DNA of 37,292 nucleotides from Desulfobacteraceae bacterium (GTDB taxonomy: Bacteria; Desulfobacterota; Desulfobacteria; Desulfobacterales; ETH-SRB1). Numbering within the stretch: the stretch's first letter is position 1; each line of letters opens with the position of its first letter. Of the stretch, positions 11,502 to 36,333 are shown one piece after another. The stretch spans positions 1 to 37,292 of the forward strand of contig JAPVVG010000133.1 in NCBI GenBank assembly GCA_028571455.1. Direction: 5' to 3'. The position numbers were made by a program, and so were the translations under genes. The notes below the pieces were generated by a model that saw only the letters and a program-made list of their open reading frames with translations, did not search any database and had not been told where the DNA came from.

Positions 11502-11520
11502 AGTTATTTATTGTTGACTC

Positions 11521-12706: not shown

Positions 12707-12707
12707 A

Positions 12708-12800
12708 ATTATATCATAAAAAATTATTGAAAAATAGCTGTTTCGAAAAAAGTCTGATTTTGCCCACTTTAGAGAGCAATTTCTTGGTTCATGATTCCGC
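12708..12800. repeat. 93-bp direct repeat, copy 2
   Basis: It matches 10221-10313 at a constant offset of 2487 bases with no gaps. It starts directly after the MITE at 12706, which shows the MITE lies at the left border of the repeated block or was inserted there. Confidence 0.75.
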
Positions 12801-12824
12801 AGGCAAAATCCACTGTAGTGAATT

Positions 12825-12864
12825 GTGTACGCCCGGCATGGGCGTGAACTTATGGGGTGAAAGT
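12825..12864 (+). mobile_element. Possible 5' terminal fragment of a group II intron
   Basis: GTGTACGCCCGGCATGGGCG followed by TGAACTTATGGGGTGAAAGT has the look of the first bases of bacterial group II introns: a GTGYG start, a GCCC-GGCAT-GGGC stem, and a GGGGTGAAAGTC-type element. The sequence is cut by the IS21 end at 12865 and nothing of the intron or its reverse transcriptase remains on the other side. The assignment is made from memory of the motif and is unsure. Confidence 0.4.
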
Positions 12865-13004
12865 TGTAGATGGTCGTGATAAATTGAGCCAAAAATGGTC
12901 GTTTTAAATTGAGCCACCTGGATAGAGATCTGGGTTTAATGTTATGGAAAGAAATTTAAACTCAGCATGGAACAGGAGGTTAATTTGAAAAAAAGGAGAC
13001 CATT

Positions 13005-15255: not shown

Positions 15256-16380
15256 ATGAAAGTTGCACTTGTATGTAAAAAATACTCTCTGCAAGAGGGC
15301 GGCCTTGAAAGATATACATATTTTTTAAGCCGCGAATTGATTCGTGCAGGCCACGAAGTTCACGTTTTTGCAAACACCTGGCAGGAAGAGCCTGGTATCA
15401 TTATTCATCGTGTACCAATGGTTCGCCTGTCTTCGCCTGCTAAGAACCTCTCTTTTGCCTTTTTTACAAACAGGGCTCTATCGGAAATAAAATTCGATAT
15501 TATTCACAGCATGGAAAGGATTTTTTATCAGGACATATTCAGGGTTTCAGATGGCATTAACCCTGTCCAAATGCAGCAAAAATATCCTCATCCTGTTGTT
15601 CGCTTTATTAAAAAAATTGGTCCAAGACGGCTGGCCCTGAGTTATCTGGAGTACAGAATATTTGTGGATAAAGGCTGCAAGATCGTCATGACTAATTCCG
15701 AGCTGGTCAAAAGAAATATTATTGAGCATTACATGATGGATCCTGAAAAGATAGTTGTAATTTACAATGGGGTAGATATATCAAGATTCAATCCCAAAGT
15801 AAAAGAGAAATACAGAAAGAGTTTAAGAGAAAGGTACAGCATAAAAAAAGATGAAATAGTCCTTGTCTTTGTATCAAATAATTTTAAGCTGAAAAGGCTT
15901 GATTTGGTTTTAGAAGCCATGGCTCTTTTGAAAAATAATAGAATCAGGCTTTTTGTTATAGGGGCTGATAACCATAGGACATACCAAAGGTGGGTTGTTA
16001 ACAATGGCCTGACTGATCAGGTTTTATTTCTTGGGCCAAAAAGAAATATAGAAAAATATTACGCTGCCAGCGATATATTTGTTTTACCTACACTTTATGA
16101 TGCCTTTGCTAATGTCTGCTTAGAAGCAATGGCCTGTGGATTGCCTGTAATTACTACTGATTCCAATGGAGCCGCAGACCTTATTCTAGATAGAGAGAAT
16201 GGTTATATACTTCAAACACAAAGGGCAGATGAACTCGCCGCCAGAATAAAGGCTCTTGAATCTGAGTCAGACAGGGTGAAGATGGGTACCGCTGCTGCTG
16301 CTGAAGCAGCAACTTTTACAATGAAAAAACATCTGTCTGAGGTGCTGAAACTTTACGGAAGAGTCAGGGGCAAAGGCTGA
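15256..16380 (+). CDS. GT4 glycosyltransferase, WaaG-like (LPS core)
   Basis: The 374-residue GT-B enzyme has an N-terminal donor/acceptor half with GGLERYTYFLSRELIRAGHE (residues 15-34) and a C-terminal nucleotide-sugar half. The retaining-enzyme motif is PTLYDAFANVCLEAMACGLP (residues 278-297). The closest described type is WaaG, which adds glucose to heptose of the inner core; donor and acceptor here are not proven. The start ATG follows an AAAGG site. It is separated by two bases from the kinase gene downstream, giving an operon. It is the intact counterpart of the lost gene replaced by the ISAzo13 remnant. Confidence 0.8.
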   Translation: MKVALVCKKYSLQEGGLERYTYFLSRELIRAGHEVHVFANTWQEEPGIIIHRVPMVRLSSPAKNLSFAFFTNRALSEIKFDIIHSMERIFYQDIFRVSDGINPVQMQQKYPHPVVRFIKKIGPRRLALSYLEYRIFVDKGCKIVMTNSELVKRNIIEHYMMDPEKIVVIYNGVDISRFNPKVKEKYRKSLRERYSIKKDEIVLVFVSNNFKLKRLDLVLEAMALLKNNRIRLFVIGADNHRTYQRWVVNNGLTDQVLFLGPKRNIEKYYAASDIFVLPTLYDAFANVCLEAMACGLPVITTDSNGAADLILDRENGYILQTQRADELAARIKALESESDRVKMGTAAAAEAATFTMKKHLSEVLKLYGRVRGKG

Positions 16381-16382
16381 GA

Positions 16383-17282
16383 ATGAAGGACTTTTCTTCA
16401 TCCATAAATCGCATAGAAAAGAACCATATGATACTAAACAGGGATTACCTGGATCTCCTTAAAAATATTCAGTTTAATTCCTTTGAATCTGTTTGGGAAT
16501 ACTTGGGCGGTAAAACCATAAAAAAAATAAAAGCAAGGTCTGTAATACGTTTTGAAATTCAAATCGCTGGCCGAAAAAGGGTTTTTTATTTAAAACGTCA
16601 CAATACTAAATTTGCTGGCCTGCAAAGGATTCTGGCATTATTTACCCCAAAACTGATTTCTTCGGAAGGAAAAAGAGAATTTGAAAATATATGTGATTTT
16701 CGGGAAGGTGGCCTTGGGACAGTTTCACCTGTTGCGGCAGGGGAAAGATTCGTTAAGTTTTGTTGGGCACAGTCTTTTCTCATAACAGAAGATTTTTCTC
16801 CCTTTATTTCTCTTGAGTATATGTTAAGGGACAACCCTGAGTTTTTTATGGGAGAAAAGGGCTCTTACAGAAAAAGAAATTTGATTAATAAGATCGGTAT
16901 GTTTGCCAGAGAAATGCATAAAAAAGGGTTTAATCACTGCGATTTCAATGCCACCCATATATTGCTTCATTACAAAGACGAATCCGATGCCCCCGATATA
17001 GCTCTTTTTGATCTTCAGAGAGTGGACAGAAGCTCTGCCACACGGTTTAGATGGGTAATAAAGAGCCTTTCAGAGCTAAACTACACCTTGACTGAGGGTA
17101 TTTTTCGCGAAGAAGATAGAATTTCCCTTTTATTATCTTACAAAGGTAAAAAAAAGCTTAATGCATGGGACAGGCTGCAATGGCTCTGGATAAAGAGAAA
17201 AACAGCAAGAATCAAAAGACATACTGAAAAGATACTCGCAAGAAGAGCTGAAAGAAGGAGAAAAGGGATAGTAGAAAGATAA
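16383..17282 (+). CDS. LPS core kinase, WaaP/InaA-like
   Basis: The 299-residue protein has the lipopolysaccharide kinase pattern: an ATP-lysine in VFYLKRHN (Lys 71), the catalytic loop HCDFNATHILL (His 185 to Leu 195, with Asp 187 as base) and the metal loop FDLQRVD (209-215). WaaP phosphorylates heptose in the inner core using ATP. The C terminus (from about 258) is a basic tail that recurs as a duplicated scrap at 11521-11646. The gene follows the WaaG-like gene at two bases. The exact sugar target cannot be told from sequence. Confidence 0.8.
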   Translation: MKDFSSSINRIEKNHMILNRDYLDLLKNIQFNSFESVWEYLGGKTIKKIKARSVIRFEIQIAGRKRVFYLKRHNTKFAGLQRILALFTPKLISSEGKREFENICDFREGGLGTVSPVAAGERFVKFCWAQSFLITEDFSPFISLEYMLRDNPEFFMGEKGSYRKRNLINKIGMFAREMHKKGFNHCDFNATHILLHYKDESDAPDIALFDLQRVDRSSATRFRWVIKSLSELNYTLTEGIFREEDRISLLLSYKGKKKLNAWDRLQWLWIKRKTARIKRHTEKILARRAERRRKGIVER

Positions 17283-19086: not shown

Positions 19087-19338
19087 TTATGGTTCTGTAG
19101 TTGCAAGAAAATTTGTGGTTCTAAATTGTTCACATAGTTCTTTATAAGAATCTACTGGATAAAGGTATCCTGAAGGTGTAATTCGGGATATCTTCATGTT
19201 AACATCTTGAAAAAAGTAATAAAAGTCTTGAAAAAATGAACGGGTATCAATATTACATCCTCCAAATTCAAATGTAACAATAGGCTGCCATTTCGTTTGG
19301 AGTAAAACTCTATGAGTTGTCAGCCTTTTTCCCAACAA
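19087..19338 (-). pseudogene. FkbM-family methyltransferase, C-terminal fragment
   Basis: The 83-residue frame contains QPIVTFEFGGCNIDTRSFFQ, DFYYFFQDVNMKI and ITPSGYLYPVDSYKE followed by FRTTNFLATTEP. This is the typical end of FkbM-type SAM methyltransferases. No SAM-binding part is present in frame. Its first 29 bases overlap the 3' end of the sugar O-methyltransferase-like gene in another frame, so it is a leftover of a larger gene that was joined there. Confidence 0.65.
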
Positions 19339-21384: not shown

Positions 21385-22398
21385 TTATACCGCTGCTTTT
21401 TGTTTATGCGGGTAGCCTGTTATCTTCGAAAATAGATTCCCCATTTTTTGGCTGTGCAGGCTTAAGGAATAATCTCTTTTTATAAACTTCCGCCCATTTT
21501 TCCCTATACGTTTTCTCAGATCAGCTTGCTGAATAAAGAGCTTCAGCCACTTGAGCCATTCATCTTCATTGTGTGCCAAAAAACCATTTTCGTGGTTATG
21601 CACAATCTCACAGTTCATCCCTACCGGCGAGGCCACTACCGGCACTCCAACAGCCATACATTGTAAAAGTTTAAAGGCGCATTTGCCGCGGCTCCATGGG
21701 TCATCCGACAGTGGCATAAGTCCTATGTCAAAACTGTGAAGGTCTTCGATCTCCTCCTCGTATTTCCAGAGCTTTTTGATTACTTTTAAGTGCCGGCAAT
21801 CAAAAAAAGTATCGCATACGATTTTTAGTTGAACATCATCAAATTCCCGGCCAATCTCTTCCAGAACTCCTTTTAAATCCGCAAGATATGCCAGGGTACT
21901 TTTGCTTCCGATCCAGCCCAGGGTTACCGTTTTTTTTTCATCGTGATAAATTTTGGCACGATATCGTTTCATATCAATCGGGGTTGGTATAATACTAACC
22001 CTGCTGTGAGGAACCTCTTCACGCAGGTACCGGTTGCCGGCTATCACCCAATCAGCGTTATTCACCGTCCGGATAAACCGTTGCCTTCTCTGCCATGAAT
22101 ATGAGTTCATATGCTTTGAGTCCCTGTACATTACCGCATCGTCAAAGTCATATATGAGCGACTTACTGTGGCAACGGAGCAGCCGAAATTCAAGCGGGCC
22201 AAGCAGTTTTTTTTGTAACACTACCAGATCAAACCGGGACATTTTACGGAAAGCAATAAACCGTGTATAAAGTCTATGCGGAATTCTCAAAACCGTGCAA
22301 ACATGCCCCATCTCCTCGAGATGAGGAATATATTGAAGAACCCGATAGCGACTGCTCGGAGCCCCGAATCTTTTTATTAAAAAAGCAATTCGCATCAT
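21385..22398 (-). CDS. GT4-type glycosyltransferase
   Basis: The 337-residue GT-B protein starts IAFLIKRFGAPSSRYRVLQY and includes LIYDFDDAVMYRDSK, SIIPTPIDMKRY, LGWIGSKSTLAYL and the donor-site motif FKLLQCMAVGVPVVASPVGMN. This is the family-4 type that often acts on core or O-antigen sugars. Its stop lies 107 bases before the preceding gene. It starts 42 bases after the fusion protein's stop. The donor sugar is unknown. Confidence 0.75.
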   Translation of the reverse strand: MMRIAFLIKRFGAPSSRYRVLQYIPHLEEMGHVCTVLRIPHRLYTRFIAFRKMSRFDLVVLQKKLLGPLEFRLLRCHSKSLIYDFDDAVMYRDSKHMNSYSWQRRQRFIRTVNNADWVIAGNRYLREEVPHSRVSIIPTPIDMKRYRAKIYHDEKKTVTLGWIGSKSTLAYLADLKGVLEEIGREFDDVQLKIVCDTFFDCRHLKVIKKLWKYEEEIEDLHSFDIGLMPLSDDPWSRGKCAFKLLQCMAVGVPVVASPVGMNCEIVHNHENGFLAHNEDEWLKWLKLFIQQADLRKRIGKNGRKFIKRDYSLSLHSQKMGNLFSKITGYPHKQKAAV

Positions 22399-22439: not shown

Positions 22440-24926
22440 CTACCCTTTCTTGGGGCCCTTAACCAATTCCACTTCCATGCCCTCACCCTTGCCAAACCAG
22501 CAAGCAATGCGCGTTAAAGGAGAGGCAATATAGTGTAGCCTTTTTCTTCTTCCCTTTTTTTGTTTTGCGAAAATCTGTTTCCGCTCCAGAAAATCTTCCG
22601 GCAAGATTCGTCCCTGTCCCATAATATATTGCAGACTCTTGTCAAAATAGCGCGGCTGTACCAGCATAAATATTTGCTTCACTCTCAATCCCGCCATCTC
22701 AGCTAACCGGCGTATGGTTTTTGGAGAAAACAACACCAAATGACGAGGAGCTTCAAGGGGATACCAACAGTTGCCAAACAACAAAAAGCCAAGGCTCTCT
22801 ATATTGGGAGTGCTGACAAGGATCTTTCCGCCCGGCGCCAGGAACTCGGCTGTTTTCCTTAAGATCCCAACCGGGTCAGGGACATGCTCGATAACCTGGC
22901 GAAGAGTGATAACATCAAAAGAGGCCTTATCATAATCAGCAGAAAAAACATCTCCATGATGGACTTTTAACCCTTGTCGCCGGCATGTCTCACAGGCGTT
23001 TTGGCTGAAATCTATACCCCGAACATGCCAGCCTAACTGTTGATGTCTATATAGAAACTTACCTCCCCCACAGCCTACATCAAGCAATCGATTTTCACCA
23101 AACGGAGAGAGTGTTCTTTTCATAACAACGCAGGAAAGTTGCGAAAATAGAAAGCGTATAAGCGCCCCTCCCTCAGGCTTGTCCACTGAGAAATGATATC
23201 GTATGGCAAGCCGGTTGATTGGTGATTGTTTCTTTTTTGGATAGGCAGCGTGACAGCTATAGTCCTCTGGATAATACCTCCCTACGTCAACCGGGACAGG
23301 ATCGAGATAAACCAGTGAACAGGAAGCGCAACGCACATAGTTGAAATTCTCTTGCCGGGGGACCAATCGGTCATATGCCCGCACAAAGAACTCTTTTTGG
23401 GTATTTTTACAAAGGGGACAACTTTGGGTTGTGATTGTTATTTTATGCTGAATCTTGAATGCCTGATCTACCAGATCTTCCGGGGTCCAGGACAGAAGGC
23501 GGGTTGGCAAGACGGGTAAACAGGCGTCGACAAAATCGACCATCTCTTGATGGTTAAAACAGGAAACCAGCGTGCGAGTGATTCTCAAGAGACTGTTTTT
23601 CAGCAACGCCGGAGAGCCCTTCCAGAAAATGGCTATCTCGTCGGTGTCAATCAGGTAAAACTCAAATTTTGAGTCAGTATCCCTGACCAGAATATTGGAG
23701 CCTTTGAGATCCATGTGATAGACTCCACGGTAAAACATTTTTTTCAGAAAAATTGCCAGTGCTTGCAGACACCTTTTTTGTTTTTCTTCAGATGCTTCCC
23801 GCATATAAAGCACTATATTACAGGCAGAATCAACAAACCGGCTCAGGTAAAAGGAATCGCCACCACGGCCTTCAATGTAGCACAATGGCTCAGGGGTTGT
23901 TATAAAACGATATATCATAGCAAGGGACCATCGAAAACTCTTCTTCCCCTTACTCACCCCCAACAAACTCTTGAGCGAATCCTTGGGGCTGCGCCGTTTA
24001 TAATATTTGATACAAATATCCTGATGCCTGACCACCCGTACTGACCGGGAATCCTTGAGTACCTCAACCTGGTTTCCGTAAATGAATTTCAGGGGCGAAG
24101 ACAGAAAAGATTCGGGGATCAGGTGCTGATTTTTTCTAAGATAAACACCCCGGTACCGGGAGGATTGAAGCGTTAACCGATCAAAGTATTTATTGATTTT
24201 TCGAAACTTACGTACCTTTCGGTCGGCTACGATACTGGAACGCTTGAGAATGAGACGCTCAAGCTGCTTTCCATCATGCCGGATAAAAACCCGCGCTTCC
24301 TGACAACTCCCCAGGTATCCTGTCAAAAAAACCAATTGTTCTTTAACTCCCAGACGGAAAAAATGTGAGAGCGCCAAATCAGCCAGATTTTTTAGTCTTC
24401 TGCTATCAGTGATTTTTTTGAAACCGCCTCTTTGAAAGTCGGCCATCTTCAGATCAGGGCCGCTCTTGTCAAGGCGGAGGATGAAATTCCCTCCGTGCAG
24501 GTCCCCATGATAAAAACCGGTTTCATGCATGTTGTGCACTACTTCTCCAAGCCTTTTAAGTACCTGAACCCTTGCTTTATAGTCCAGGGCGTCAAACATA
24601 GTATTGAGCGGAGCATACTCATCATGGGCCACGGAGACAAGATAAGCCAGGCCTCCGGCAATGCCCATGGCAATTGGGACGATAGTAGGGAGACCTTCCT
24701 CAAAAAGTCTTATCCAGTTTTGCCATTCTTTTTTTGCCTTCCTGGTACGCATGCGCTTGATATAGAACCCGCCGGCCTGGTGAAAATAGACACCCCTTTC
24801 ATGACCTTCTTTGATTACCCTACCTTCTTTGATTAGAGATTCAGGGTCCTCTAAACTATATTTGTTGAAGAGGTGAGTTTGAGCTTCCGGGATTTTCCAG
24901 TGGATATTGTTGGCGTGCGATGTCAT
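22440..24926 (-). CDS. Tri-modular LPS kinase - kinase - zinc ribbon/methyltransferase fusion
   Basis: The 828-residue protein has three catalytic modules. Module 1 (about 35-240) is a WaaP/Kdo-kinase-like fold with YHGDLHGGNFIL (139-150) and ADFQRGG (162-168). Module 2 (about 255-490) is a second such kinase with VYHMDLKGSNILV (402-414) and YLIDTDEI (424-431). Module 3 (about 500-815) starts with a Cys4 site (C503, C506, C533, C536) and continues with a class I SAM methyltransferase: LLDVGCGGGKFL (614-625), IEHVPDPVGIL and LAPGGKILVSTPN. Both catalytic Asp sites and the Asn of the kinase loop are kept (D142/N147, D406/N411). The position between two glycosyltransferases suggests it phosphorylates two positions and methylates one. 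I recognise the parts but not a described gene with this order. Confidence 0.75.
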   Translation of the reverse strand: MTSHANNIHWKIPEAQTHLFNKYSLEDPESLIKEGRVIKEGHERGVYFHQAGGFYIKRMRTRKAKKEWQNWIRLFEEGLPTIVPIAMGIAGGLAYLVSVAHDEYAPLNTMFDALDYKARVQVLKRLGEVVHNMHETGFYHGDLHGGNFILRLDKSGPDLKMADFQRGGFKKITDSRRLKNLADLALSHFFRLGVKEQLVFLTGYLGSCQEARVFIRHDGKQLERLILKRSSIVADRKVRKFRKINKYFDRLTLQSSRYRGVYLRKNQHLIPESFLSSPLKFIYGNQVEVLKDSRSVRVVRHQDICIKYYKRRSPKDSLKSLLGVSKGKKSFRWSLAMIYRFITTPEPLCYIEGRGGDSFYLSRFVDSACNIVLYMREASEEKQKRCLQALAIFLKKMFYRGVYHMDLKGSNILVRDTDSKFEFYLIDTDEIAIFWKGSPALLKNSLLRITRTLVSCFNHQEMVDFVDACLPVLPTRLLSWTPEDLVDQAFKIQHKITITTQSCPLCKNTQKEFFVRAYDRLVPRQENFNYVRCASCSLVYLDPVPVDVGRYYPEDYSCHAAYPKKKQSPINRLAIRYHFSVDKPEGGALIRFLFSQLSCVVMKRTLSPFGENRLLDVGCGGGKFLYRHQQLGWHVRGIDFSQNACETCRRQGLKVHHGDVFSADYDKASFDVITLRQVIEHVPDPVGILRKTAEFLAPGGKILVSTPNIESLGFLLFGNCWYPLEAPRHLVLFSPKTIRRLAEMAGLRVKQIFMLVQPRYFDKSLQYIMGQGRILPEDFLERKQIFAKQKKGRRKRLHYIASPLTRIACWFGKGEGMEVELVKGPKKG

Positions 24927-25147
24927 CTCTGTCAGAAAGTCCTTTTTTCGCTTGTGTGACTACTCAGGTTGTTAGGCTCAAGGTTTACGGAAGAACCATC
25001 TGATTTCAGAAGAACTTTGAAGGGAGCTTCTGCATTCCGTCCCAGAGAACGAAGATATTGTGTGTTAACAGTTTCCAATGACCTTATTCGTGTATAGCTT
25101 GTCTCGTATTAGAATACAGCGCTCAACTTTGAGCGAGCCGTTTAGGT

Positions 25148-25960
25148 TTAATTATCAAGAGAATCATCCATAAGTATTTGTTCAGTGTTTAAATCCTTTA
25201 GAGCTTTATTGATGCGTGTCAGACCTTTTTTGATAGTGCTTTTCCTGGCGCCTAATTCCGGATGAAGCACCATGGTGGCGTGATTTAGATGTATGACGTA
25301 TTTACTGAGGAATGCTGATTCAAGAAAAACCATTTTATAGCCATTATCTTCAAGCTTTTTATGCATTATCTTGCCGGCGGTGTCTTTGCCATCAGAAAAC
25401 GAGAGATTGTTTTTTCTTATTAAGTCCATCCGGTAAAGGGCCAAATGGCTTCGCAGGTATAAGTAGTTTTTTCCTTTTCCTTCCAGGGCGTGATCTGTTT
25501 TGCCGATCAGGCGGTAGTAAACGCTTTCCCACTGGTACTCAATAGCCTTGGCCAGTCTTTTAATAAAAGGTTTATTCTCAAGTTTCCATGAACCGACTCC
25601 GGCAACAATTGATTCTTTTTCTATTTCTGCCAATAAAACATCAAGCCAGTCCGGATGTTTAACAAAGGTATCTGTATGCATGGAAAGAACATAAGGCGTG
25701 GTAACCTTTTCCAGTGCAAGGTCAAGAGCTCTTGCGTGAGATAAAGATGGACTGTCGTCCTGTTTTTTCTTTCTTTCAATGAGCGTCATGTATTTAAGGC
25801 TTTTCAGATATTCCAAAGATTCGTCTTGAGAATCATTATCAATGACGATTATGCTGATTTTTTTCGGATCAGTATATTTGCGCAAAAGGCGCAGGCATAG
25901 CTTGGTGACTTTAAGTGTTTTATAGTTCGGTATTAAGGCTGTTACTATTGGATTAGACAT
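25148..25960 (-). CDS. GT2 family glycosyltransferase
   Basis: The 270-residue protein has the GT-A fold marks of family 2: VTALIPNYKTLKVTKLCLRL, IIVIDNDSQDESLEYL (residues 37-52), and MHTDTFV with the H95-T-D97 metal site. A later KYVIHLNHATMVLHPELG carries His residues. It follows the ArnT-like gene and precedes the fusion gene. It likely adds a sugar to the core or to an undecaprenyl intermediate. Which sugar cannot be told. Confidence 0.75.
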   Translation of the reverse strand: MSNPIVTALIPNYKTLKVTKLCLRLLRKYTDPKKISIIVIDNDSQDESLEYLKSLKYMTLIERKKKQDDSPSLSHARALDLALEKVTTPYVLSMHTDTFVKHPDWLDVLLAEIEKESIVAGVGSWKLENKPFIKRLAKAIEYQWESVYYRLIGKTDHALEGKGKNYLYLRSHLALYRMDLIRKNNLSFSDGKDTAGKIMHKKLEDNGYKMVFLESAFLSKYVIHLNHATMVLHPELGARKSTIKKGLTRINKALKDLNTEQILMDDSLDN

Positions 25961-25995: not shown

Positions 25996-27528
25996 CTACT
26001 TATTTTTTATAAACTCGAAAACAGCAATCATGTCCCCTTCTTTATTCGCAAATATTTTGCCGGGTTCGAGTTTTAGCGTTAATAATGTGTTTTTTATTTT
26101 TTCATAATGCTTTTGTTTTGTTTTTAAAGCAACAAAATCATCAGATGACCACTGCGGTATTGTAAGATTATCAGAAACATCCCATTGCATAAATTTTTCT
26201 CCGGCATAATATGATAGCCGGGAATTATTTGTATAAAGATTTGATTGCTCTGGCCTGTTGTCTCTTAGCCATGTACCGGCCGAGACAATATAGGCCTTTG
26301 ATTGTTTGGGTGGTATAAATGCATAAACAAACATAATTAAGAAAGCAAGTGCGAGTGCAGGAAATAAAAAATTATCTTTAAAGACAGCTTTTTTATCCAG
26401 CCATTTCTGCATAATATAATAAAGGCTGAATGGTGCCCAGAGCAGCAAAAGCAGGCTTGCAGGCATTAAAAAGCGGGATGATATGAAAAACTTTTGGCCT
26501 AAAAATATGGCAGGTATAACTAAATTCAATATCGAAAAATATATTATCACTTTTTTTATGCCTTTATCCGCAGGCATAAGTCTTTTCCAAAAAGCGTGGC
26601 CGAAAAGCAATGTATGTACAGGCCAGAGAGTCGCCACCAGTTTGTATAAATATATCCCGGTCAGCCCGGATATGACCATGGTTAAACCAAATTTCTTTGA
26701 ATATTTGTTAAGAACCGTCTGGCTGATAATTGCTGCTTTTTCATTGATATTGGTACTTAACAATATTAGGCCATTTTGCAGTTGATACCAAAATTCGCTT
26801 AACCTTCCAAGCTGGGCAATATCTCTATTCGGTATATTGAGCCACCAAACAATTATTATGGATATTGCTATGATATTGAGACTATATGCTTTAAGAGTAT
26901 TTCCAAATTTATTCCAGAATGCTGTTTCCTTTCGGAATAGGAGAACCAGAGGGCCGAAGCAGCATAGCACCAAGCCTTCAGGCCGAAACAATATTGCAAC
27001 GCTTATAAATATTCCCCAGCCCAAGGCATGGCGCCATTTTAGGTGTTTATAAAAACGAATAAAATTTAAGAGGGCTAATAAAGAGAACGCCCAATAACCA
27101 AACCCCCGAACAATATAGTGCTGATAGTGATGTAATTGCGGATGGCTAAGAATAATAAGTGCGCCTATAAATTGCACGATACGTGAACCGCCCAATTCCT
27201 TGATAAGAGTGATAAAACTGGTTACTATTATAACAAGAAGAGCCGCATTCAATACATAGGTTGAGTTTTCGAAAGATAAATGGGTTAGTTTGGACAGCCA
27301 CGCGATAAGTATTGAATAAAAAGGCCAGCTATAATGTTTTATCGCCTCTTGCCACCCACTGTTTGCAAAAGCCTCAGCAGTTTGCAAATATAGAATTCCG
27401 TCATTATTTATGGGGTTCTGGGTGTTGACAGCGATGAACAGGGTTATCAGGCTTAATATCCCCGCAATCGGCCGGATATAATTAAACTGATCAATCAGGT
27501 AAATGCCGCGTTTTATGTGGTCTTTCAT
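25996..27528 (-). CDS. Membrane glycosyltransferase of the PMT/ArnT type (GT-C)
   Basis: The 510-residue protein has about ten hydrophobic helices (for example PIAGILSLITLFIAV, AALLVIIVTSFITLI, FIGALIILSHP, ALGWGIFISVAILF). The first loop contains NNDGILYLQTAEAFANSGW, with acidic residues where GT-C enzymes bind the lipid-linked sugar. The C terminus is a soluble periplasmic segment. Family members move a sugar (such as aminoarabinose or mannose) from a polyprenyl phosphate carrier to lipid A or to a protein. LPS context favours lipid A or core modification. It is not a close ArnT match. Confidence 0.65.
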   Translation of the reverse strand: MKDHIKRGIYLIDQFNYIRPIAGILSLITLFIAVNTQNPINNDGILYLQTAEAFANSGWQEAIKHYSWPFYSILIAWLSKLTHLSFENSTYVLNAALLVIIVTSFITLIKELGGSRIVQFIGALIILSHPQLHHYQHYIVRGFGYWAFSLLALLNFIRFYKHLKWRHALGWGIFISVAILFRPEGLVLCCFGPLVLLFRKETAFWNKFGNTLKAYSLNIIAISIIIVWWLNIPNRDIAQLGRLSEFWYQLQNGLILLSTNINEKAAIISQTVLNKYSKKFGLTMVISGLTGIYLYKLVATLWPVHTLLFGHAFWKRLMPADKGIKKVIIYFSILNLVIPAIFLGQKFFISSRFLMPASLLLLLWAPFSLYYIMQKWLDKKAVFKDNFLFPALALAFLIMFVYAFIPPKQSKAYIVSAGTWLRDNRPEQSNLYTNNSRLSYYAGEKFMQWDVSDNLTIPQWSSDDFVALKTKQKHYEKIKNTLLTLKLEPGKIFANKEGDMIAVFEFIKNK

Positions 27529-27578: not shown

Positions 27579-28574
27579 TCATCGCTTTTTTTTACCACGT
27601 GCTCTTCTTTTATCTCTTTGGCGCTGGCGTCTGGCCAGATCTTCAGGATACAGTTCTGGATAGTGCCTTTTCCATCGTTTGTGAAACCATAACCATTGCT
27701 CTGGATATAAGCTAACAATTTTTTCAACAGAGTCTGTCATAATCTGTGTATTTGTGCGCAAGTCGCGGCGCACGTCATCAGTTTTATTTAATTTTAATGG
27801 GGGCTCCACAACAACTGTTAGCTCAGTATCGGATTCTCTTATACAGTAAACTGGCAGAACCTGACAATTATATCTTGCGGCCAACAAGGAGGCTGCATAT
27901 GTGGCATTGGTATTACGGCCAAAAAAAGTGACGTCAACTCCTTCTCTGCGAGAAGTCCCCTGGTCGATCAGCAAGCCCACCATTTTGCCTTTACGTAAGG
28001 TCCGAACCAGTTTGATCATGGCTCCTTTTTTTCTGATAATGGTATTCCCTGTACTTGTTCTGAGCTTATGAATTATCCGTTCAATAATATAAGGCTGATT
28101 TTGCGCTACCACTACTTGTGACTTTTGTAAATAACTTGACAAAAAAAGATGGCACATCTCCCAGTTTCCTATGTGAGCTGAGATCATAATAACGCCTTTA
28201 GGGCTTTTTATCGTATTTAACAGATTTTCTTTTCCTCTTATTCTAACTTTTTGCAAAATATCTTCTTTTGAAAAACAAGTCATTTGACAGATTTCCAAAA
28301 CAGTAATTCCCATGTTTTGAAAAATACGAAGAGTGAGTTTTCTTATATGATCTTCCGACCACTGTGGGTGAGTAAATTTTAAATTGCGTCCCACAATGCG
28401 CCTGTGGCGCGCATCAAGCAGGTATGCAAGACCCCCTAATATATTTCCCGCTTCGACAATATACTTTTTGGGTATACCAACAATTAAAGTTTTTATTGTT
28501 CCTGAAAGACCATTGAGTTTTGACATTTTCGATTGGCGCTGCATTTCATTTTTTCCAGACATATATTTCAACAA
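27579..28574 (-). CDS. LpxL/LpxM-like lipid A acyltransferase
   Basis: The 331-residue protein carries the acyltransferase motif SAHIGNWEM (H134 to E139, H-x4-E) and, later, LLIDQGTSRREGVDVTFFGR and PEQWLWFHKRWK, all signatures of the HtrB family. An N-terminal amphipathic or hydrophobic segment (ILGGLAYLLD) would attach it to the inner membrane. The last 20 residues are a lysine/arginine-rich tail (RRQRQRDKRRARGKKKR). The start could be any of the first three ATG codons. A second paralogue lies at 32079-32984, so one may add the first and the other the second secondary acyl chain. Confidence 0.85.
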   Translation of the reverse strand: MLKYMSGKNEMQRQSKMSKLNGLSGTIKTLIVGIPKKYIVEAGNILGGLAYLLDARHRRIVGRNLKFTHPQWSEDHIRKLTLRIFQNMGITVLEICQMTCFSKEDILQKVRIRGKENLLNTIKSPKGVIMISAHIGNWEMCHLFLSSYLQKSQVVVAQNQPYIIERIIHKLRTSTGNTIIRKKGAMIKLVRTLRKGKMVGLLIDQGTSRREGVDVTFFGRNTNATYAASLLAARYNCQVLPVYCIRESDTELTVVVEPPLKLNKTDDVRRDLRTNTQIMTDSVEKIVSLYPEQWLWFHKRWKRHYPELYPEDLARRQRQRDKRRARGKKKR

Positions 28575-28588
28575 AAACCGAGCATTTA

Positions 28589-29632
28589 TTACGAGAATAT
28601 AGAATTTACCGCATCCATTACTTGTTCCACGCTGATCTGTTTCATACAGTCAATTGTGTTGCACTGCCTTTTAAAGCATGGGCTGCATTCCAGGTCTGCC
28701 CTGATAATTTTATGGCCATCACCAAACGGGCCGGTTCTCCCCGGCGCTGTGGGCCCGAAAAGAGCCACAACAGGCGTTCCTATGGCTGCGGCGAGATGCA
28801 TGGGGCCTGTGTCGGTTGAAACAACAATGGATGTTTTTTCATAAAGCGCAGCCAGTGTTTTCAAGTCGGTCTTGCCGGCAAGATTGGCGGCCCTGTTTTT
28901 CATGTTTGAAATAATATCCTCGATTCCTTTGCTATCTTCCCGGCTTCCTGTAAAAATTACATCAGCCTTTGCCTGCTCAATCAGTCTGTCTGCAAGGTTT
29001 GCAAATTTCAGATTATCCCAGAGCTTTGTTTCCCATTTAGCCATTGGATTTATTGCAACAAGGAGCTCAGGTGTTTTTATGCCGCAGTGCATCAGCAGAT
29101 CATTTGCAGCATCGCGATCCTGGTCGGAAACCGGAAGATTAAACACAACCTCACGAGATTGAATCCCAATAGATTCTAAAAGCATCATCCCCCTGGTCAG
29201 AGCATGAACCTCCATGTCAACCGGCTTAATACATTCATTTAAGAATATATAACTGTGTTCCTGGTGCTCCATGCCTTTGTCAAAGCCGATTTTTCTTTTG
29301 CCTTTAGCCAGTCCTATTAAAACTCCGCTTTTAAGCAGGACCTGGAAATCAAGTATTATGTCGTAGTTAGTATCACGCAACTGCTTAATAAAACTGCAGG
29401 CCTCTCTGATATTTTTAAGGGGAGAACGCCCGGCAAGACCTTTCAGCCATGTCTTTCTTTTTGAAACAATTATCCTGTCAAGCGCTCTGTGCCCTTTGAT
29501 AACGTCATGTGCCGCCTCTTCCACCAGCCATGTAATATGTGCGTCAGGATACTGTTTTCTAACAGCATTCAGAGCAGGAAGGGTATGGATCACATCGCCG
29601 ATGGCGCTCAATTTTACAATGAGTATCTTCAC
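28589..29632 (-). CDS. waaC: LPS heptosyltransferase I
   Basis: The 347-residue GT9 enzyme begins ILIVKLSAIGDVIHTLPAL, the Rossmann start shared by WaaC, and has WLVEEAAHDVIKGHRALDR, VSTDTGPMHLAAAIGTPVVA (donor site) and ALFGPTAPGRTGPFG. The SAIGD and VEE features point to heptosyltransferase I rather than II. It transfers L-glycero-D-manno-heptose from ADP-heptose to Kdo. The gene is 14 bases upstream of the acyltransferase and in the same operon. Confidence 0.88.
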   Translation of the reverse strand: MKILIVKLSAIGDVIHTLPALNAVRKQYPDAHITWLVEEAAHDVIKGHRALDRIIVSKRKTWLKGLAGRSPLKNIREACSFIKQLRDTNYDIILDFQVLLKSGVLIGLAKGKRKIGFDKGMEHQEHSYIFLNECIKPVDMEVHALTRGMMLLESIGIQSREVVFNLPVSDQDRDAANDLLMHCGIKTPELLVAINPMAKWETKLWDNLKFANLADRLIEQAKADVIFTGSREDSKGIEDIISNMKNRAANLAGKTDLKTLAALYEKTSIVVSTDTGPMHLAAAIGTPVVALFGPTAPGRTGPFGDGHKIIRADLECSPCFKRQCNTIDCMKQISVEQVMDAVNSIFS

Positions 29633-30975: not shown

Positions 30976-32022
30976 TTACAAAAGTTCCTTTACAACTTCA
31001 AAAACCATATCAACGTCTATCTGATCCATGCACTTTAAATGACCTTTGGGGCATTCTGGTTTCAGGCATGGGCTGCAATCGATTGGAACGCGCACAATCC
31101 TGCTGTTTAAGCCTTTTGGTCCTGTTGTGACAGGATTTGTGGAGCCGAATATGGCGATCAAATGGATATCAAGGGCGGCCGCGACATGCATCAAGCCTGA
31201 ATCGTTTGTAATAAAGAGATTGCACATATTTATCAAGGCTATTGCCTCTTCAAGTTTGGTTTTACCGCAGAGGTCAACCGGCGGATGCTGCATCATCTGT
31301 GAAATTCTTATACCCAGTTCTCTATCTCCTGGACCGCCAAAAAGAAGTATGTTAGCCCCAAAAACTTCATGTATTTTATCAGACAAATCAGCATAACGCT
31401 CCGGAAACCACTGTTTGGCCGGCCCAAAAGTGGCGCTTGGGTTAATTCCAACCAATCTATCTGCCCTTGATATGCCATGTTCTTCCAAAATTTTTGCGGC
31501 GCGCTTTTGATCCTTGTTATTCACAACAAGATCCAGCCTCGGGCCGTCTGTATCCAGACCTACTCCCTGAAGAATGCCGAGATAATATCCGGTTTGATGT
31601 ATCTTCTTGATTTGAGGCCTGCAGGGAACAGAGTGGGTCAGCAAAAAACCTCTTACATCTCTATTATACCCGATTCTGCATGGAATGCCTGCAAAAAATG
31701 TAATGAGAGCGGCTTCAAAGGCGTTTTGCAGCAGGATTGCCGCATCAAAACCGTGTTGTTTCAAATCCTTTGCAAGCTGCATTTTACCGGCAATCCCCTT
31801 ATGCTTTCCTACTTCGTCATATATCAACAGTTTATCCACATAAGGACTGTTTGAAAAAATCGGCGCAACCCATGGCTTGGTTAATATGCTGATTTCGGCA
31901 TCAGGAAAGTTTTTCCGGATCGCCCGGACAGCAGGTGTGGTCATAACAGCGTCGCCAATCCAGTTTGTTGAACGGATAAGGAGTCGCTTGATATTTTTTA
32001 TTTGTATTGGTTTTATCGCCAT
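30976..32022 (-). CDS. waaF: LPS heptosyltransferase II
   Basis: The GT9 enzyme starts at ATG 32022 with MAIKPIQIKNIKRLL. Signatures are LLIRSTNWIGDAVMTTPAVR (the typical WaaF start), ILTKPWVAPIFSNSP, GINPSATFGPAKQWFPERYA, LFITNDSGLMHVAAALDIHL and FGSTNPVTTGP. It adds the second heptose to the first. The upstream in-frame extension to 32142 overlaps the acyltransferase end and includes a repeat phrase, so the start at 32022 is preferred. The operon then continues to the AAA ATPase. Confidence 0.9.
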   Translation of the reverse strand: MAIKPIQIKNIKRLLIRSTNWIGDAVMTTPAVRAIRKNFPDAEISILTKPWVAPIFSNSPYVDKLLIYDEVGKHKGIAGKMQLAKDLKQHGFDAAILLQNAFEAALITFFAGIPCRIGYNRDVRGFLLTHSVPCRPQIKKIHQTGYYLGILQGVGLDTDGPRLDLVVNNKDQKRAAKILEEHGISRADRLVGINPSATFGPAKQWFPERYADLSDKIHEVFGANILLFGGPGDRELGIRISQMMQHPPVDLCGKTKLEEAIALINMCNLFITNDSGLMHVAAALDIHLIAIFGSTNPVTTGPKGLNSRIVRVPIDCSPCLKPECPKGHLKCMDQIDVDMVFEVVKELL

Positions 32023-32024
32023 TT

Positions 32025-32076
32025 TTATGGAACACGGATGACACGGATTTTCATTGTCTTGTCTGTATGGGTCTGC
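32025..32076. repeat. Short dispersed intergenic repeat
   Basis: On the minus strand the phrase CGCAGACCCATACAGACAAG with a following GTGTCATCCGTGTTCCAT reads like a genome-wide intergenic repeat. The phrase at 195-232 (GATCAGCGTAGATC) may be of the same class. It fills the small gap between the acyltransferase stop and waaF. Confidence 0.3.
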
Positions 32077-32078
32077 GG

Positions 32079-32984
32079 CTAAATCTTTCTTGGCCATTGG
32101 CAGTATGGTTTTGTCTTCCAGCGTTGATGAACCCAGAACCACTGATCAGGGTATTGACGGATAATTGATTCTATAACCCTGTTATACTGCTGTGTGTTTG
32201 CTTCAATATCTTTTGTCTTGTCTTCTGTTTTTATCAGAGGCACTTCGCGACAGAATTTTGCTTTAAAGCCCAGTCCTTCACGCACTAAAAAAACCGGAAT
32301 AACCGGCGCTTCAGTCTTTAGGGCCAGGAGGGCCAATCCTTTATTAGTGCAAGCTCTGGCGCCAAAAAAATCGACAAAAACCCCTTCATACCAATCAACG
32401 TTCTGATCAAGTAAAATGACAACCCCTTCCCCTTTTTTTAAACTGCTTAGAATCTTGCGCATTGAATGCCTTGCAGGGATCAATTTTGCTCCAAAACGGG
32501 TCCGGGTATTTATAAAAATCGTATCCAGGGGTAAAAAATCAAGGGGACGAAAGACTATGTTGATATTGCGGCCGGTCATGGCCCCAATAACGGGCAGAAG
32601 TTCCCAGTTTCCGATATGAGCGGTAAGAAACAAAACGCCTTTGCCCTTTTCAAAAGCAGCTTTGAAGTTGGATAATCCATTGATGCAAAAATGTTTGTTA
32701 AAATCTTTGCTGTTTAGCCTAAAAGACCATCCTATTTCAAAAAGAATTTGGCTGAAATTTTTAAAAACACTCCTGGCAAGAGCTTTAATCTCATATGAAC
32801 CTTTTTCACGGCCAAAAGAACGTGTCAGGTTGTTTAGCGCTATTTTCCGGTGCTTTTTATCAAATAAAAACAGAATTCGCCCGATAAAGTTGCCCAGCTT
32901 GAATGCCGTCTTGCGAGGGATAAGGCCCAAAAGTTTAAACAGACCGGCAATGACTTTGTATGTAATCTCTTGTAAATTAAACAT
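32079..32984 (-). CDS. LpxL-like lipid A acyltransferase (second paralogue)
   Basis: The enzyme begins MFNLQEITYKVIAGL at 32984; this start overlaps the preceding GT2 stop by 8 bases (ATGTTTAA). It has the acyltransferase motif LTAHIGNWELL (H123 to E128, numbered from this start), then VILLDQNVDWYEGVFVDFFG and DQWFWVHQRWK. This is the HtrB/LpxL family that transfers a fatty acid from acyl-ACP to Kdo-lipid A. A longer start at 33026 would lie inside the GT2 gene. It is only moderately similar to the gene at 27579. Confidence 0.87.
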   Translation of the reverse strand: MFNLQEITYKVIAGLFKLLGLIPRKTAFKLGNFIGRILFLFDKKHRKIALNNLTRSFGREKGSYEIKALARSVFKNFSQILFEIGWSFRLNSKDFNKHFCINGLSNFKAAFEKGKGVLFLTAHIGNWELLPVIGAMTGRNINIVFRPLDFLPLDTIFINTRTRFGAKLIPARHSMRKILSSLKKGEGVVILLDQNVDWYEGVFVDFFGARACTNKGLALLALKTEAPVIPVFLVREGLGFKAKFCREVPLIKTEDKTKDIEANTQQYNRVIESIIRQYPDQWFWVHQRWKTKPYCQWPRKI

Positions 32985-33726
32985 GCAGGCCCGACTCCCA
33001 TGCCTTGGCGTGCTTAAGAAAGACATACCATGCTGAATTCATGGCAATAACAAGCCCGGGGATGCCGTCTAAAAAACCGAGTTTCCATAAATAACACTCA
33101 ACAAATTTGCCAAGGGCATGAACTGTCCCGGCCAAAACAAACCAGCCGCCTGTGGGGCCGCGATCAACGGAATAAATATCGGAAAACCTGTTAATTGTTG
33201 CAACATGATCTGAAATATTCCGGTAAACATGATGAAGAATCGGTTCAGAGAGCTGCTTTATCTTTCCATTAACAATTAGCTGTTCGTGAAGGCCCTCCCC
33301 TTCCCACATGCCTTTGCCCCTGCGGACAAGACGCACCTTGCGATCAGGGTACCATCCGCCATGTTTTATCCATTTGCCGAGATATCTGGATAGTCTCGGC
33401 ATGGAAAAGCCGGATACATCAGAGCCGGCATTTTTAATGGCATGCTGCATCTCTCTTGCAAAAGAGTCTGATATTTCCTCATCAGCGTCAAAGTTGAGTA
33501 TCCATTCACACGAAGTATGCTCCATCGCAAACTGTTTTTGAGCAGCATATCCGGCCCATTCATGAAAAACTACTTTTGCTCCAAGCTTTTTGCAGAGATC
33601 CTGAGTGCCGTCAATGCTTCCGGAATCCACAACAATCACTTCATCGGCAAACTTTGCACTATTGAGCAGACGACCGATCCGATCTGCCTCGTTTTTTGCA
33701 ATAACAGCTATGCTTATTTTTTTCAT
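32977..33726 (-). CDS. GT2 glycosyltransferase, WaaE/KdtX-like
   Basis: The 249-residue protein opens ISIAVIAKNEADRIGRLLNS and has VIVVDSGSIDGTQDL, ILNFDADEEISDSF (metal site D80-x-D82), the product-site block GWYPDRKVRLVRRGKGMWEG, and YLWKLGFLDGIPGLVIAM near the C terminus. These match the WaaE/KdtX (beta-glucosyl/inner-core) type, usually next to lpxK and waaA, as here. It likely adds a hexose to heptose I or to lipid A-core. The C-terminal membrane segment suggests inner-membrane attachment. Confidence 0.82.
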   Translation of the reverse strand: MKKISIAVIAKNEADRIGRLLNSAKFADEVIVVDSGSIDGTQDLCKKLGAKVVFHEWAGYAAQKQFAMEHTSCEWILNFDADEEISDSFAREMQHAIKNAGSDVSGFSMPRLSRYLGKWIKHGGWYPDRKVRLVRRGKGMWEGEGLHEQLIVNGKIKQLSEPILHHVYRNISDHVATINRFSDIYSVDRGPTGGWFVLAGTVHALGKFVECYLWKLGFLDGIPGLVIAMNSAWYVFLKHAKAWESGLHV

Positions 33727-33758: not shown

Positions 33759-33790
33759 GTCGACCACTCGACTACTCGACTACTCGACTA
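33759..33790. repeat. 9-bp tandem array 1
   Basis: Four partly exact units of CTCGACTAC (complement GTAGTCGAG) end inside the lpxK 3' end. The last residues of lpxK (IVE) and its TAG stop are encoded here. Confidence 0.8.
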
Positions 33791-34973
33791 TCCCTTCAAG
33801 CCTGTTTTTAATAAAATCAACAAAAGCATTTTCATCCTCTCCGAGGGAAAGCTCTATGCCGACAACAACAAGTTCTACAGGCCATGAAGTTTTGCCGGAA
33901 ATCCGCACATAGTCCTTTTCAGTTGTGAGGATAAATTCAGCCTGAGCATTAATTGACGATTGCATGATTGTTTGCAGATCAGTTTTCGTATATTTATGGT
34001 GGTCCGGAAATTCAAAAAAATCGATTAAATCGCATTTAAGGTTTTCAACTGTTCTACGAAAATCATTATTTCCTGCCAACCCTGAAAATGCAATGACTCT
34101 GCGTCCATGTAACAAACCAGAATCAAAGTTTTGCAGCTCGATTGCATAGGAATTTCCTTTTTTCACCCCCTCCCAAACCATCCCCCTTGAAGGGGGAGGG
34201 CAGGATGGGGGTTTATAAAGATTAGGAACATAAAAAGACCTGAAAACAGGTTTGCCTGGCGCCAGGTTTTTAATTTTATCCATAGTAACTTGTCTGATGT
34301 AATCGGGAACAAAATCAGACCTTGTTAAAACAAATGTATCACCTCGCTTTAATGCAGAAATCGGCTCTCTTAAAATGCCTCTTGGCAGCAGATAGTTGTT
34401 GCCAAAAGGATGCCCGCAATCCAAAAGGACAATATCAATGTCTCGCTTCAGATTAAGATGCTGGAAAGCATCATCAAGCACAATAACATCAGGATTAAAT
34501 TCCTTTATGGCCAGCCAGCCTGCCTTGTATCTGTTTTGACCTACAACGACAGGTATGTTATTCACCTTTGCGGCCATCATAAATGGTTCATCACCCGCCT
34601 TTTCAGACTCCATTAATATAGTATGCCCGTTGCTTACAATTCCTCCTGTTTTTTCCGCTCCACCCTTATATCCTCTGCTGATTATGGCTACCTTATAACC
34701 AAGGCTTTTAACAAGTTTTGCCATATATATAGTCATAGGGGTCTTGCCTGTACCACCAACCGTCAAATTGCCTATGGATATCACAATGCAGGGAAGTTTT
34801 TTGGGCTTTAAAATACTATTTTTGTAGAAAGCCTCTCTTAGCCTTACAGCTCCCCCATAAAAAAGAGAAGCCATAAACAAAAAAGACCCAAAAGAGAATA
34901 ATCGGTCTTTTCTGTTCCCTGTCATAATTGTTTCTATCTTTTTTCTGATCCTTGCCATCACCTGATTATCCAT
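33780..34973 (-). CDS. lpxK: Tetraacyldisaccharide 4'-kinase
   Basis: LpxK phosphorylates the 4' position of the lipid A precursor at the inner membrane. The 397-residue protein has a membrane segment near the N terminus (FGSFLFMASLFYGGAVRL), the P-loop GNLTVGGTGKTPMT (residues 68-81), IISRGYKGG (98-105), VVVGQNRYKA, VIVLDDAFQHLNLKRDIDIVLLD (164-186) and GLAGN followed by FFEFPDHHKYT, all standard. Residues 254-273 (KPPSCPPPSRGMVWEGVKKG) are not part of the family and coincide with a repeat-like DNA patch at 34155-34214. The C terminus is made from the 9-bp array. The next gene upstream is waaA. Confidence 0.92.
   Translation of the reverse strand: MDNQVMARIRKKIETIMTGNRKDRLFSFGSFLFMASLFYGGAVRLREAFYKNSILKPKKLPCIVISIGNLTVGGTGKTPMTIYMAKLVKSLGYKVAIISRGYKGGAEKTGGIVSNGHTILMESEKAGDEPFMMAAKVNNIPVVVGQNRYKAGWLAIKEFNPDVIVLDDAFQHLNLKRDIDIVLLDCGHPFGNNYLLPRGILREPISALKRGDTFVLTRSDFVPDYIRQVTMDKIKNLAPGKPVFRSFYVPNLYKPPSCPPPSRGMVWEGVKKGNSYAIELQNFDSGLLHGRRVIAFSGLAGNNDFRRTVENLKCDLIDFFEFPDHHKYTKTDLQTIMQSSINAQAEFILTTEKDYVRISGKTSWPVELVVVGIELSLGEDENAFVDFIKNRLEGIVE
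34155..34214. repeat. Palindromic repeat patch inside lpxK
   Basis: TCCCCCTTGAAGGGGGA (34181-34197) is a perfect 8-bp-arm palindrome. It lies in a C/G-rich stretch (CACCCCCTCCCAAACCATCC, GGAGGGCAGGATGGGGG) resembling the AATCCCCCTT-type intergenic element also seen near 10465-10490 and 15185-15210. It is read through in frame, 20 codons without a stop. Confidence 0.75.
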
Positions 34974-34982
34974 TTGACATGG

Positions 34983-35038
34983 GTCGAGTGGTCGAGTGGG
35001 AAATTGGTCGAGTGGTTGATTACTCGACTACTTGACTA
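34983..35038. repeat. 9-bp tandem array 2
   Basis: Copies of GGTCGAGTG and GATTACTCGACTACTTGACT-type units lie between lpxK and waaA. The array contributes the last residues (SQVVE) and the TAA stop of waaA. Confidence 0.8.
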
Positions 35039-36333
35039 TTTACAAACTTTATCACATTCAAAGTTTTTTTAACAGCTCCTTTGTTGGCATTAAAGACTTT
35101 GAAAGCCATGCTTCCCATTTCTCCAGCTTTCTGATTGTCAGTCAGCAATTCCAATACAATGTTATATATGCCTTCTGCATCATTCACAGAAATAGCTCCT
35201 CCTGATTCGACAAGCATATCTGATATATCTGCGAAATCGCTCATGTCCGTCCCAAAGATAATCGGTCTGGAAAATGCCGCAGGCTCAAGAGGATTGTGGC
35301 CGCCACATTTTACAAGGCTTCCCCCCACAAAGGCTATATCTGCTATGGCGTAAAGCATTTTTAATATCCCTATCCTGTCAACAACAATTACATCCGGTTC
35401 AGGCTTTTTTTCTTCAAGATCAGACATTGTAACCGCAAAAAAACCCGCTGATTTACAAATTCGGCATACTGATGCAGCGCGATCCGGATTTCTGGGGACA
35501 ATAATAAGGATAAGGTCAAGATATTTCTTTTTTAGTCTTGAAAACGCGTCAAGAAGTATTGCTTCTTCCCCGGAATGCGTGCTTCCTGCCAGCAGGATTT
35601 GTTGAGACGGCTTGACAAGCAAAGATTGTCTTAATTTATTTAGTTCTTTCCGGCCGGCAAAATCGTATTGCTGGTCAAATTTTATGTTTCCGGTTATTGT
35701 TATCCTGCCCGGCGGGATCCCGAGGAGGCTGAAGCGATGGGCATCCTCCGAAGACTGAACGCAAATTTTTGAAAAGGATAAAAAAAGTCTTTTAGAAAAG
35801 AATAAAAACCGTTTGTATCCAAAATATGATTTTTTTGAAAGCCTTGCGTTTACGAGGATCACAGGAACATTGCGCCTTTTCATTTCAAACATAAAATTCG
35901 GCCATATATCAGACTCAACAATAATAACGATGGCCGGCTCAACCTTTGCCGCAATATGTTTTACCGAAACCAGCAAATCATAGGGAAAGAAAAATATTGA
36001 ATCTACATTTCCTTTTAAAAGATTATTTGCTATTTCAAACCCTGTTTTTGTGGAGGCTGAAAAAACAATATCCTGATGTTTGAAACAACTCTTTATTTTT
36101 TTAATTAGAGGGACAGCGGAAACAACCTCGCCAACAGAAAGAGCATGTATCCATATCGGTCTGTTGTTGCCCTTTTGTAATCTGTTTTGGCTTATGGCTT
36201 TTGGAAGCGGTGAAATCCCCAGCCTGTGAAGAATCGTTTTCCGCCTTTTATCACTTGTAAGCACAAGCGGAATTATCAGGGGAAGCCCAATGGTAATTCC
36301 TATTACAAGAAGCATATTATATAAAAGAATCAA
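35020..36333 (-). CDS. waaA: Kdo transferase (second copy)
   Basis: The 437-residue GT30 enzyme has an N-terminal membrane helix (MLLVIGITIGLPLIIPLVL), the N-domain motif IWIHALSVGEVVSAVPLIKKI, FSASTKTGFEIANNLL, FFFPYDLLVSVKHI, IIVESDIWPNFMFEMKRRNV and a C-terminal block FVGGSLVKCGGHNPLEPAAF. These are canonical, with start at ATG 36333. It differs clearly from the copy at 8754-10058 (SVGE and SDIWPN in this copy, ESEIWPG in that one), so the genome has two Kdo transferase genes. It is next to lpxK, as usual in many operons. The last five residues come from the 9-bp repeat. Confidence 0.92.
   Translation of the reverse strand: MILLYNMLLVIGITIGLPLIIPLVLTSDKRRKTILHRLGISPLPKAISQNRLQKGNNRPIWIHALSVGEVVSAVPLIKKIKSCFKHQDIVFSASTKTGFEIANNLLKGNVDSIFFFPYDLLVSVKHIAAKVEPAIVIIVESDIWPNFMFEMKRRNVPVILVNARLSKKSYFGYKRFLFFSKRLFLSFSKICVQSSEDAHRFSLLGIPPGRITITGNIKFDQQYDFAGRKELNKLRQSLLVKPSQQILLAGSTHSGEEAILLDAFSRLKKKYLDLILIIVPRNPDRAASVCRICKSAGFFAVTMSDLEEKKPEPDVIVVDRIGILKMLYAIADIAFVGGSLVKCGGHNPLEPAAFSRPIIFGTDMSDFADISDMLVESGGAISVNDAEGIYNIVLELLTDNQKAGEMGSMAFKVFNANKGAVKKTLNVIKFVNSQVVE

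Follow-up and report, generated by a model that had tools for sequence, protein, structure and literature searches.

The locus described here raises the question whether a single polypeptide may unite two LPS kinases with a methyltransferase, and what such a protein would contribute to the assembly of the LPS. The window, i.e. the whole stretch of DNA that was analyzed, comprises the 37,292 nucleotides of contig JAPVVG010000133.1 of a Desulfobacteraceae bacterium. An earlier note had proposed a single 828-residue chain with three modules within an LPS gene cluster, and the open reading frame, the Pfam matches and the neighbouring genes bear this out; the strand, which had been left unstated, is the minus strand, with an ATG at 24926 and a stop at 22440. 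The reading we favour, with fair confidence, is that a tandem WaaP-like LPS kinase has genuinely been fused here to a Cys4 SAM methyltransferase such as core-LPS clusters contain, that the protein has a role in the core LPS, and that the gene stands at the site where relatives have their usual tandem kinase gene. The layout is as follows.

22440..24926, minus strand: fusion gene, 828 aa, K1 - K2 - Cys4 methyltransferase (open reading frame, Pfam, motifs)
24231..24926, minus strand: K1, residues 1-232, WaaP-like kinase with E67, H140, D142, N147 and D163
23445..24230, minus strand: K2, residues 233-494, WaaP-like kinase with K307, H404, D406, N411 and D427, and Ser330 at the alphaC Glu position
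22443..23444, minus strand: methyltransferase including its Cys4 N-terminal part, residues 495-828
23319..23420, minus strand: Cys4 segment C503, C506, C533 and C536, part of the methyltransferase family

A domain search of the full chain returned the Pfam family Kdo/WaaP (PF06293) in two stretches and Methyltransf_23 once (residues 608-750, 92.9 bits, cut-off 27). When the modules were scored singly in a search of the organism's own genome, PF06293 reached 43.3 and 30.2 bits, both above the family cut-off of 21.3 bits. The genome holds three PF06293 matches, all of them inside the window: K1, K2 and a separate kinase gene at 16383-17282 (85.9 bits). The whole chain found one match in its own genome, and the five further matches were to the methyltransferase part only. 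The catalytic motifs are readily recognized, with HGDLHGGN from residue 140 and DFQ at 163 in K1, and HMDLKGSN from residue 404 and DTD at 427 in K2.

The earlier note had allowed that one kinase module might lack a real ATP-binding fold. A model of the K1-K2 half, made with an alignment of 24 sequences (mean pLDDT 88.2, pTM 0.70), has WaaP as its top PDB match (Foldseek E 6.4e-11). More specifically, K1 (residues 8-231) superimposes on WaaP (6dfl) with Z 19.7 and rmsd 4.0 over 217 aligned residues, the K2 region (residues 272-473) superimposes on the Rio1 kinase (1zth) with Z 14.4 and rmsd 4.2 over 184, and the tandem-kinase profile matches WaaP over residues 291-464 with E 1.1e-16. On the basis of these structure and profile matches both modules are predicted to have the kinase fold. 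A model of the full chain (mean pLDDT 68.9, pTM 0.47) is of low quality over the kinases and too weak to show how the domains are arranged; its ten-residue blocks from 611 to 760, in the methyltransferase, score 89 or more.

The key residues described for WaaP are K51, the alphaC Glu E78, HRD and DFG (PMC6147952). K1 has equivalents of all of these, its lysine being K57, which was placed by eye in a column that is unconserved (K in 3/20) and probably misaligned. The alphaC Glu of K1 is E67, and a Glu is found there in all 30 tandem relatives. K2 carries Ser330 where K1 and WaaP have this Glu. There is no Glu among the 23 letters of that column in the 24-row alignment, nor in any of the 30 tandem relatives, which have S (22), T (2), G (2), A (2), C (1) or V (1). 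Eight other positions (E67, D142, N147, D163, K307, D406, N411 and D427) are kept in 30/30 of these relatives, and D142, D163, K307, D406 and D427 fall in conserved alignment columns. The assertion that both modules keep the key residues thus holds for K1 and for most residues of K2, but not for the alphaC Glu of the latter; that neither module is dead is likely, with the same reservation for K2. Because the column is consistently non-Glu while the catalytic positions are invariant, K2 does not look like a decayed copy and belongs to a conserved class that lacks the alphaC Glu.

The same serine could be taken to mean that catalysis is left to K1 alone, with K2 serving as a pseudokinase-like or regulatory domain for the binding of ATP or the acceptor, as Ser330 occupies the position of WaaP E78 (PMC6147952) and Glu is absent there throughout the tandem relatives. 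We consider this unlikely, though it deserves attention: the positions of K307, D406, N411 and D427 have been kept in 30/30, and a relative of K2 occurs as a gene of its own in genome G173, which together suggest that K2 is active.

The kinase half by itself is not new. Matches to K1-K2 were found in 77 of the 389 genomes of the order at E 1e-3, the own genome included, and many of them are single frames of ~480-550 aa that cover both kinase domains. At the level of the phylum, frames of mostly 548-605 aa match about residues 60-450 with E 1e-24 to 6e-21. Tandem WaaP-like kinases of ~470-605 aa thus recur in the order and the phylum, which gives no support to the implied novelty of two LPS-kinase domains per chain; an alignment could be made of 30 tandem kinases from other genomes, none of which had a methyltransferase match. 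These proteins are not known to have a name. In a tree of 78 domains, K1 groups with the N-domains and K2 with the C-domains of one broad tandem subtype, at forks of moderate support (ultrafast bootstrap about 82-96). The tandem kinases of the organism's own family sit in other clades, with 100/100 support, that include neither K1 nor K2. The N- and C-domains do not each form one clean group, as 4 of the 30 N-domains lie on the C-domain side of the tree. The sequence nearest to K2 is that of G173 (53%); it forms a gene of its own that ends in a stop codon and comes immediately behind a relative of the single kinase of the window. Such a relative also precedes the sequence nearest to K1 (G077, 48%), which is cut off by the end of its contig. 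We also observed, in locus L060 (G112:C192, 2843-5179, minus strand), a 778-aa frame whose 5' end is open and in which three stretches resemble kinases, a possible triple LPS kinase.

The methyltransferase half has its own relatives. The four cysteines had been described as a segment ahead of the methyltransferase; however, the Cys4 motif and the SAM loop GxGxG are both invariant in 13/13 aligned methyltransferases, and by this alignment the Cys4 segment is part of the methyltransferase family and not a separate module. The best folds for residues of about 500-828 are those of TcaB9, MtmC and KijD1 (Z 19.6-20.7 over 229-238 residues), and the next has Z 16.8. TcaB9, MtmC and KijD1 carry an N-terminal zinc site. 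The nine closest relatives within the order (G118, G032, G072, G270, G011, G037, G084, G365 and G363; 30-37% identity) are all separate genes. Within the stretches fetched, a WaaP-like kinase gene lies near eight of the nine, G365 being the one without, and G011, G118, G072 and G037 have the order single kinase - methyltransferase - GT4. Near twelve more distant methyltransferases (those of ranks 11-20 plus two with long frames) no kinase gene was found at E 1e-5, two of them being on contigs of only 3.6 and 4.9 kb. The link is weaker at the phylum level than within the order, with a kinase gene in 2 of 8 methyltransferase neighbourhoods (G600 and G587). Viewed from the kinases, 5 of 12 phylum-level stretches (L127, L132, L134, L135 and L136) have a relative of the GT4 gene at 21385 within ~1.5 kb of the tandem kinase, and all of these except L136 also carry a small methyltransferase-like ORF. 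Elsewhere in the window, at 19310-20302 on the minus strand, NanM (TIGR04371), a family of putative sugar O-methyltransferases, is matched weakly (28.2 bits, below the cut-off of 44).

Since separate genes of both kinds lie near each other in relatives, and the fusion is seen in a single genome, a draft assembly in 267 contigs, the frame might be an artefact in which a sequencing or assembly error joined an adjacent tandem kinase and methyltransferase. The junction makes this very improbable. There is no in-frame ATG, GTG or TTG between residues 473 (TTG) and 515 (GTG), and the 29 codons before the first Cys of the methyltransferase are devoid of such a start, which is our argument for a real fusion. 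In fact, the 87 bases before the first Cys codon contain no ATG, GTG or TTG in any frame, except for a TTG that overlaps that codon; CTG, which is present in frame at 478 and 485, was left out of this count. The stand-alone methyltransferases start 5-46 residues before the first Cys, according to mechanically assigned starts. Moreover, when the three frames were scored for coding in sliding windows of 60 codons, frame 0 came first in 26/26, both junctions included. Finally, K2 runs up to the last residues it has in common with the G173 relative (KIQ) and the methyltransferase is preserved from the first Cys onwards, so that nothing has been cut at the join. The start codons and the coding score thus speak against the accidental joining of separate genes that the earlier note had named as a possible refutation.

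How rare is this fusion? Of the 1107 ORFs of at least 150 aa in 148 loci, 69 match the kinase and 86 the methyltransferase (E 1e-3), and only three copies of the window gene match both; a check with 959 ORFs had the same outcome. Queries with K1, K2 and the methyltransferase yielded no second kinase-methyltransferase fusion among the long frames listed, at either E 1e-3 or 0.1. Ten long methyltransferase frames showed in Pfam a glycosyltransferase (2), a radical SAM domain (2) or nothing further (6), and no kinase domain. A single-protein scan of the genome contigs gave no close relative of the whole chain, and a scan with the K2 alignment matched the G173 contig alone (JAUWMN010000224.1, Desulfobacterales bacterium isolate CSMAG_2399). 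The viral contigs had no match to the chain, and none of the 103 plasmid records that matched it had one place covering 80% or more. The genome searches sum to 1739 look-ups in overlapping sets. Thus, the covalent join, for which the earlier note knew no precedent, is indeed unusual, as the same architecture was not met elsewhere among the matches listed, whereas the parts it links are ordinary and its tandem kinase half is common. As only copies of the window gene carry both parts among the ORFs and genomes searched, the K1-K2-methyltransferase architecture appears to be rare and is perhaps confined to this lineage. With one draft genome of 267 contigs showing it, the fusion may possibly also be a private event without function. 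A partial literature search that covered few subscription journals found no paper on an LPS kinase-methyltransferase gene fusion, and no description of the kinase-methyltransferase pairing or of a tandem kinase class without alphaC Glu; among the LPS kinase papers listed, 'two kinase domains' was not found.

The surroundings of the gene bear on both its history and its function.

21385..22398, minus strand: GT4-type glycosyltransferase, relatives of which adjoin the stand-alone methyltransferase in several genomes
24941..25078, minus strand: remnant of the tandem kinase usual in the family, corresponding to its first 31-44 codons; it is out of frame with the fusion gene, whose ATG follows after 14 bases
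25148..25960, minus strand: GT2 glycosyltransferase, relatives of which lie ahead of the usual tandem kinase in three genomes, G013, G016 (where it is shortened) and G072
25996..27528, minus strand: 510-aa protein with seven hydrophobic segments; five genomes of the family have it, strongly conserved, upstream of their tandem kinase
27579..28574, minus strand: lipid A acyltransferase
28589..29632, minus strand: heptosyltransferase (GT9)
30976..32142, minus strand: heptosyltransferase (GT9)
32079..33026, minus strand: lipid A acyltransferase
33780..34973, minus strand: LpxK
35020..36333, minus strand: Kdo transferase
15256..16380, plus strand: GT4 glycosyltransferase beside the single kinase
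16383..17282, plus strand: single WaaP-like kinase (Pfam)

In G008, G013, G014, G015 and G016, all of the same family, the gene of the 510-aa protein (no Pfam match at E 1e-4 or NCBIfam match at E 1e-3) is followed by a tandem kinase of 483-497 aa, with the GT2 gene also ahead of the kinase in G013 and, shortened, in G016. The window has the GT2 gene, then the remnant (25078-24941) and then the fusion ATG. The remnant aligns over 31-44 residues with the five tandem kinases of the family at 48-55% identity (E 2e-7 to 9e-10), the next-best match in the window having E 0.10. Because this 5' end of the usual tandem kinase lies just upstream, the fusion gene occupies the place of that kinase. Its GC content (0.45-0.47; GC3 0.45-0.51) lies at the top of, or beyond, the range spanned by 15 neighbouring genes (0.37-0.45; GC3 0.34-0.47), which fits an acquisition and proves nothing. 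An inversion that moved the methyltransferase and the GT4 gene behind the kinase locus would explain the gene order relative to G118 and G072; we set this guess aside, there being no second remnant in the window. Transposase-type genes (ISAZ013-like DDE, rve integrase and IstB) lie beside LPS genes at 10548-15035, and are a possible cause of rearranged order.

With a Kdo transferase, LpxK, two acyltransferases and two heptosyltransferases as neighbours, the fusion is placed in core-lipid A assembly. Relatives of the single kinase directly precede the stand-alone methyltransferase (G011, G118, G072 and G037), the K2 relative (G173) or the K1 relative (G077). Several other genes of the window should be mentioned. 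An AAA ATPase gene (29799-30905, minus strand) separates the two heptosyltransferase genes, which are adjacent in L095; in G008 (L030) an ORF of weak similarity precedes the acyltransferase. A second Kdo-transferase-like gene (8754-9704, minus strand) adjoins a cytidylyltransferase gene (7949-8761) and is probably N-terminally shortened, since its Pfam match starts only at profile position 82. Near the LPS genes are also a DruA-like protein (PF14236, 6941-7732, minus strand) and a YrbL-like protein (PF10707, PhoP regulatory network, 11757-12365, minus strand).

From this neighbourhood we infer a putative core-heptose kinase function. The K1-K2 pair would phosphorylate one or two inner-core sugars (heptose or Kdo) of the nascent lipid A-core in the cytoplasm, K1 presumably being the canonical enzyme of the two, whereas K2 would represent the class without alphaC Glu. 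The tethered methyltransferase, held near the same acceptor, may then methylate a core sugar. By their fusion, steps that separate proteins carry out in relatives would be held in a fixed ratio and in one place. A bolder version, in which one chain adds two phosphates at two unlike kinase sites, one of them without alphaC Glu, and subsequently methylates the same core-LPS acceptor, possibly at the phosphate, seems to us distinctly unlikely. To our knowledge, a methylated phospho-core of this kind occurs in no LPS core. Of the two targets suggested earlier for the methyl group, phosphate or sugar, we do not favour the phosphate, although it is possible: the folds that come nearest belong to sugar C-methyltransferases, and the domain order is the reverse of that in WbdD and Klebsiella O7 ORF6. 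Considering that the fusion joins two families that recur as neighbours in the core-LPS clusters of the order, a shared acceptor is predicted for the tandem kinases and Cys4 methyltransferases that are separate proteins there. The fusion also draws attention to tandem WaaP-like kinases, with a second domain that lacks the alphaC Glu, as a widespread class.

WbdD and ORF6 are both known makers of methyl-phosphate in which the methyltransferase precedes the kinase; WbdD of E. coli O9a has its methyltransferase at 1-210 and its kinase at 211-459, followed by a C-terminal part with a coiled coil. A chain of kinase and methyltransferase that acts on LPS glycans has therefore already been published, and by analogy the fusion protein could be a chain terminator, its kinase phosphorylating the end of the O-antigen chain and its methyltransferase capping the phosphate. 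We give this little credence. The fusion has the order kinase-kinase-methyltransferase, opposite to that described for WbdD, and two WaaP-like kinases instead of one; its neighbours include core and lipid A genes, and its methyltransferase folds most like sugar C-methyltransferases. The genome has no Wzt_C match, although this is a 97%-complete draft and the model found only 3 of 14 control genomes. WbdD was absent among the listed matches of the sequence and fold searches, which is no evidence against kinship.

A role in the core LPS, as favoured here, can be set against the known systems. WbdD and Klebsiella O7 ORF6 likewise combine kinase and methyltransferase in one chain for LPS glycan targets (those of the fusion being presumed), yet they have the methyltransferase first, a single kinase, a coiled coil and the end of the O-chain as target. 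The core heptose I kinase WaaP/RfaP (PF06293, 6dfl) shares with the modules the kinase fold, the catalytic Lys, the HxD loop, the metal Asp and the location in an LPS gene cluster, whereas the fusion has two tandem domains, a Ser at the alphaC Glu position of K2, an attached methyltransferase and a presumed acceptor. The sugar C-3 methyltransferases TcaB9, MtmC and KijD1 are the closest folds to the methyltransferase part, but comprise about 394-419 residues in their structures, which are complexes with dTDP-sugars, and have no kinase. The stand-alone Cys4 SAM methyltransferases (e.g. those of G011 and G118) have the same invariant Cys4 and SAM loop and several of them adjoin GT4 and kinase genes, but they are separate genes with their own start. 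Finally, the tandem WaaP-like kinases of the order and the phylum share with the fusion the K1-K2 order, the catalytic pattern with a non-Glu alphaC position in K2 and the LPS-type neighbours, and differ from it in that their chain carries no methyltransferase.
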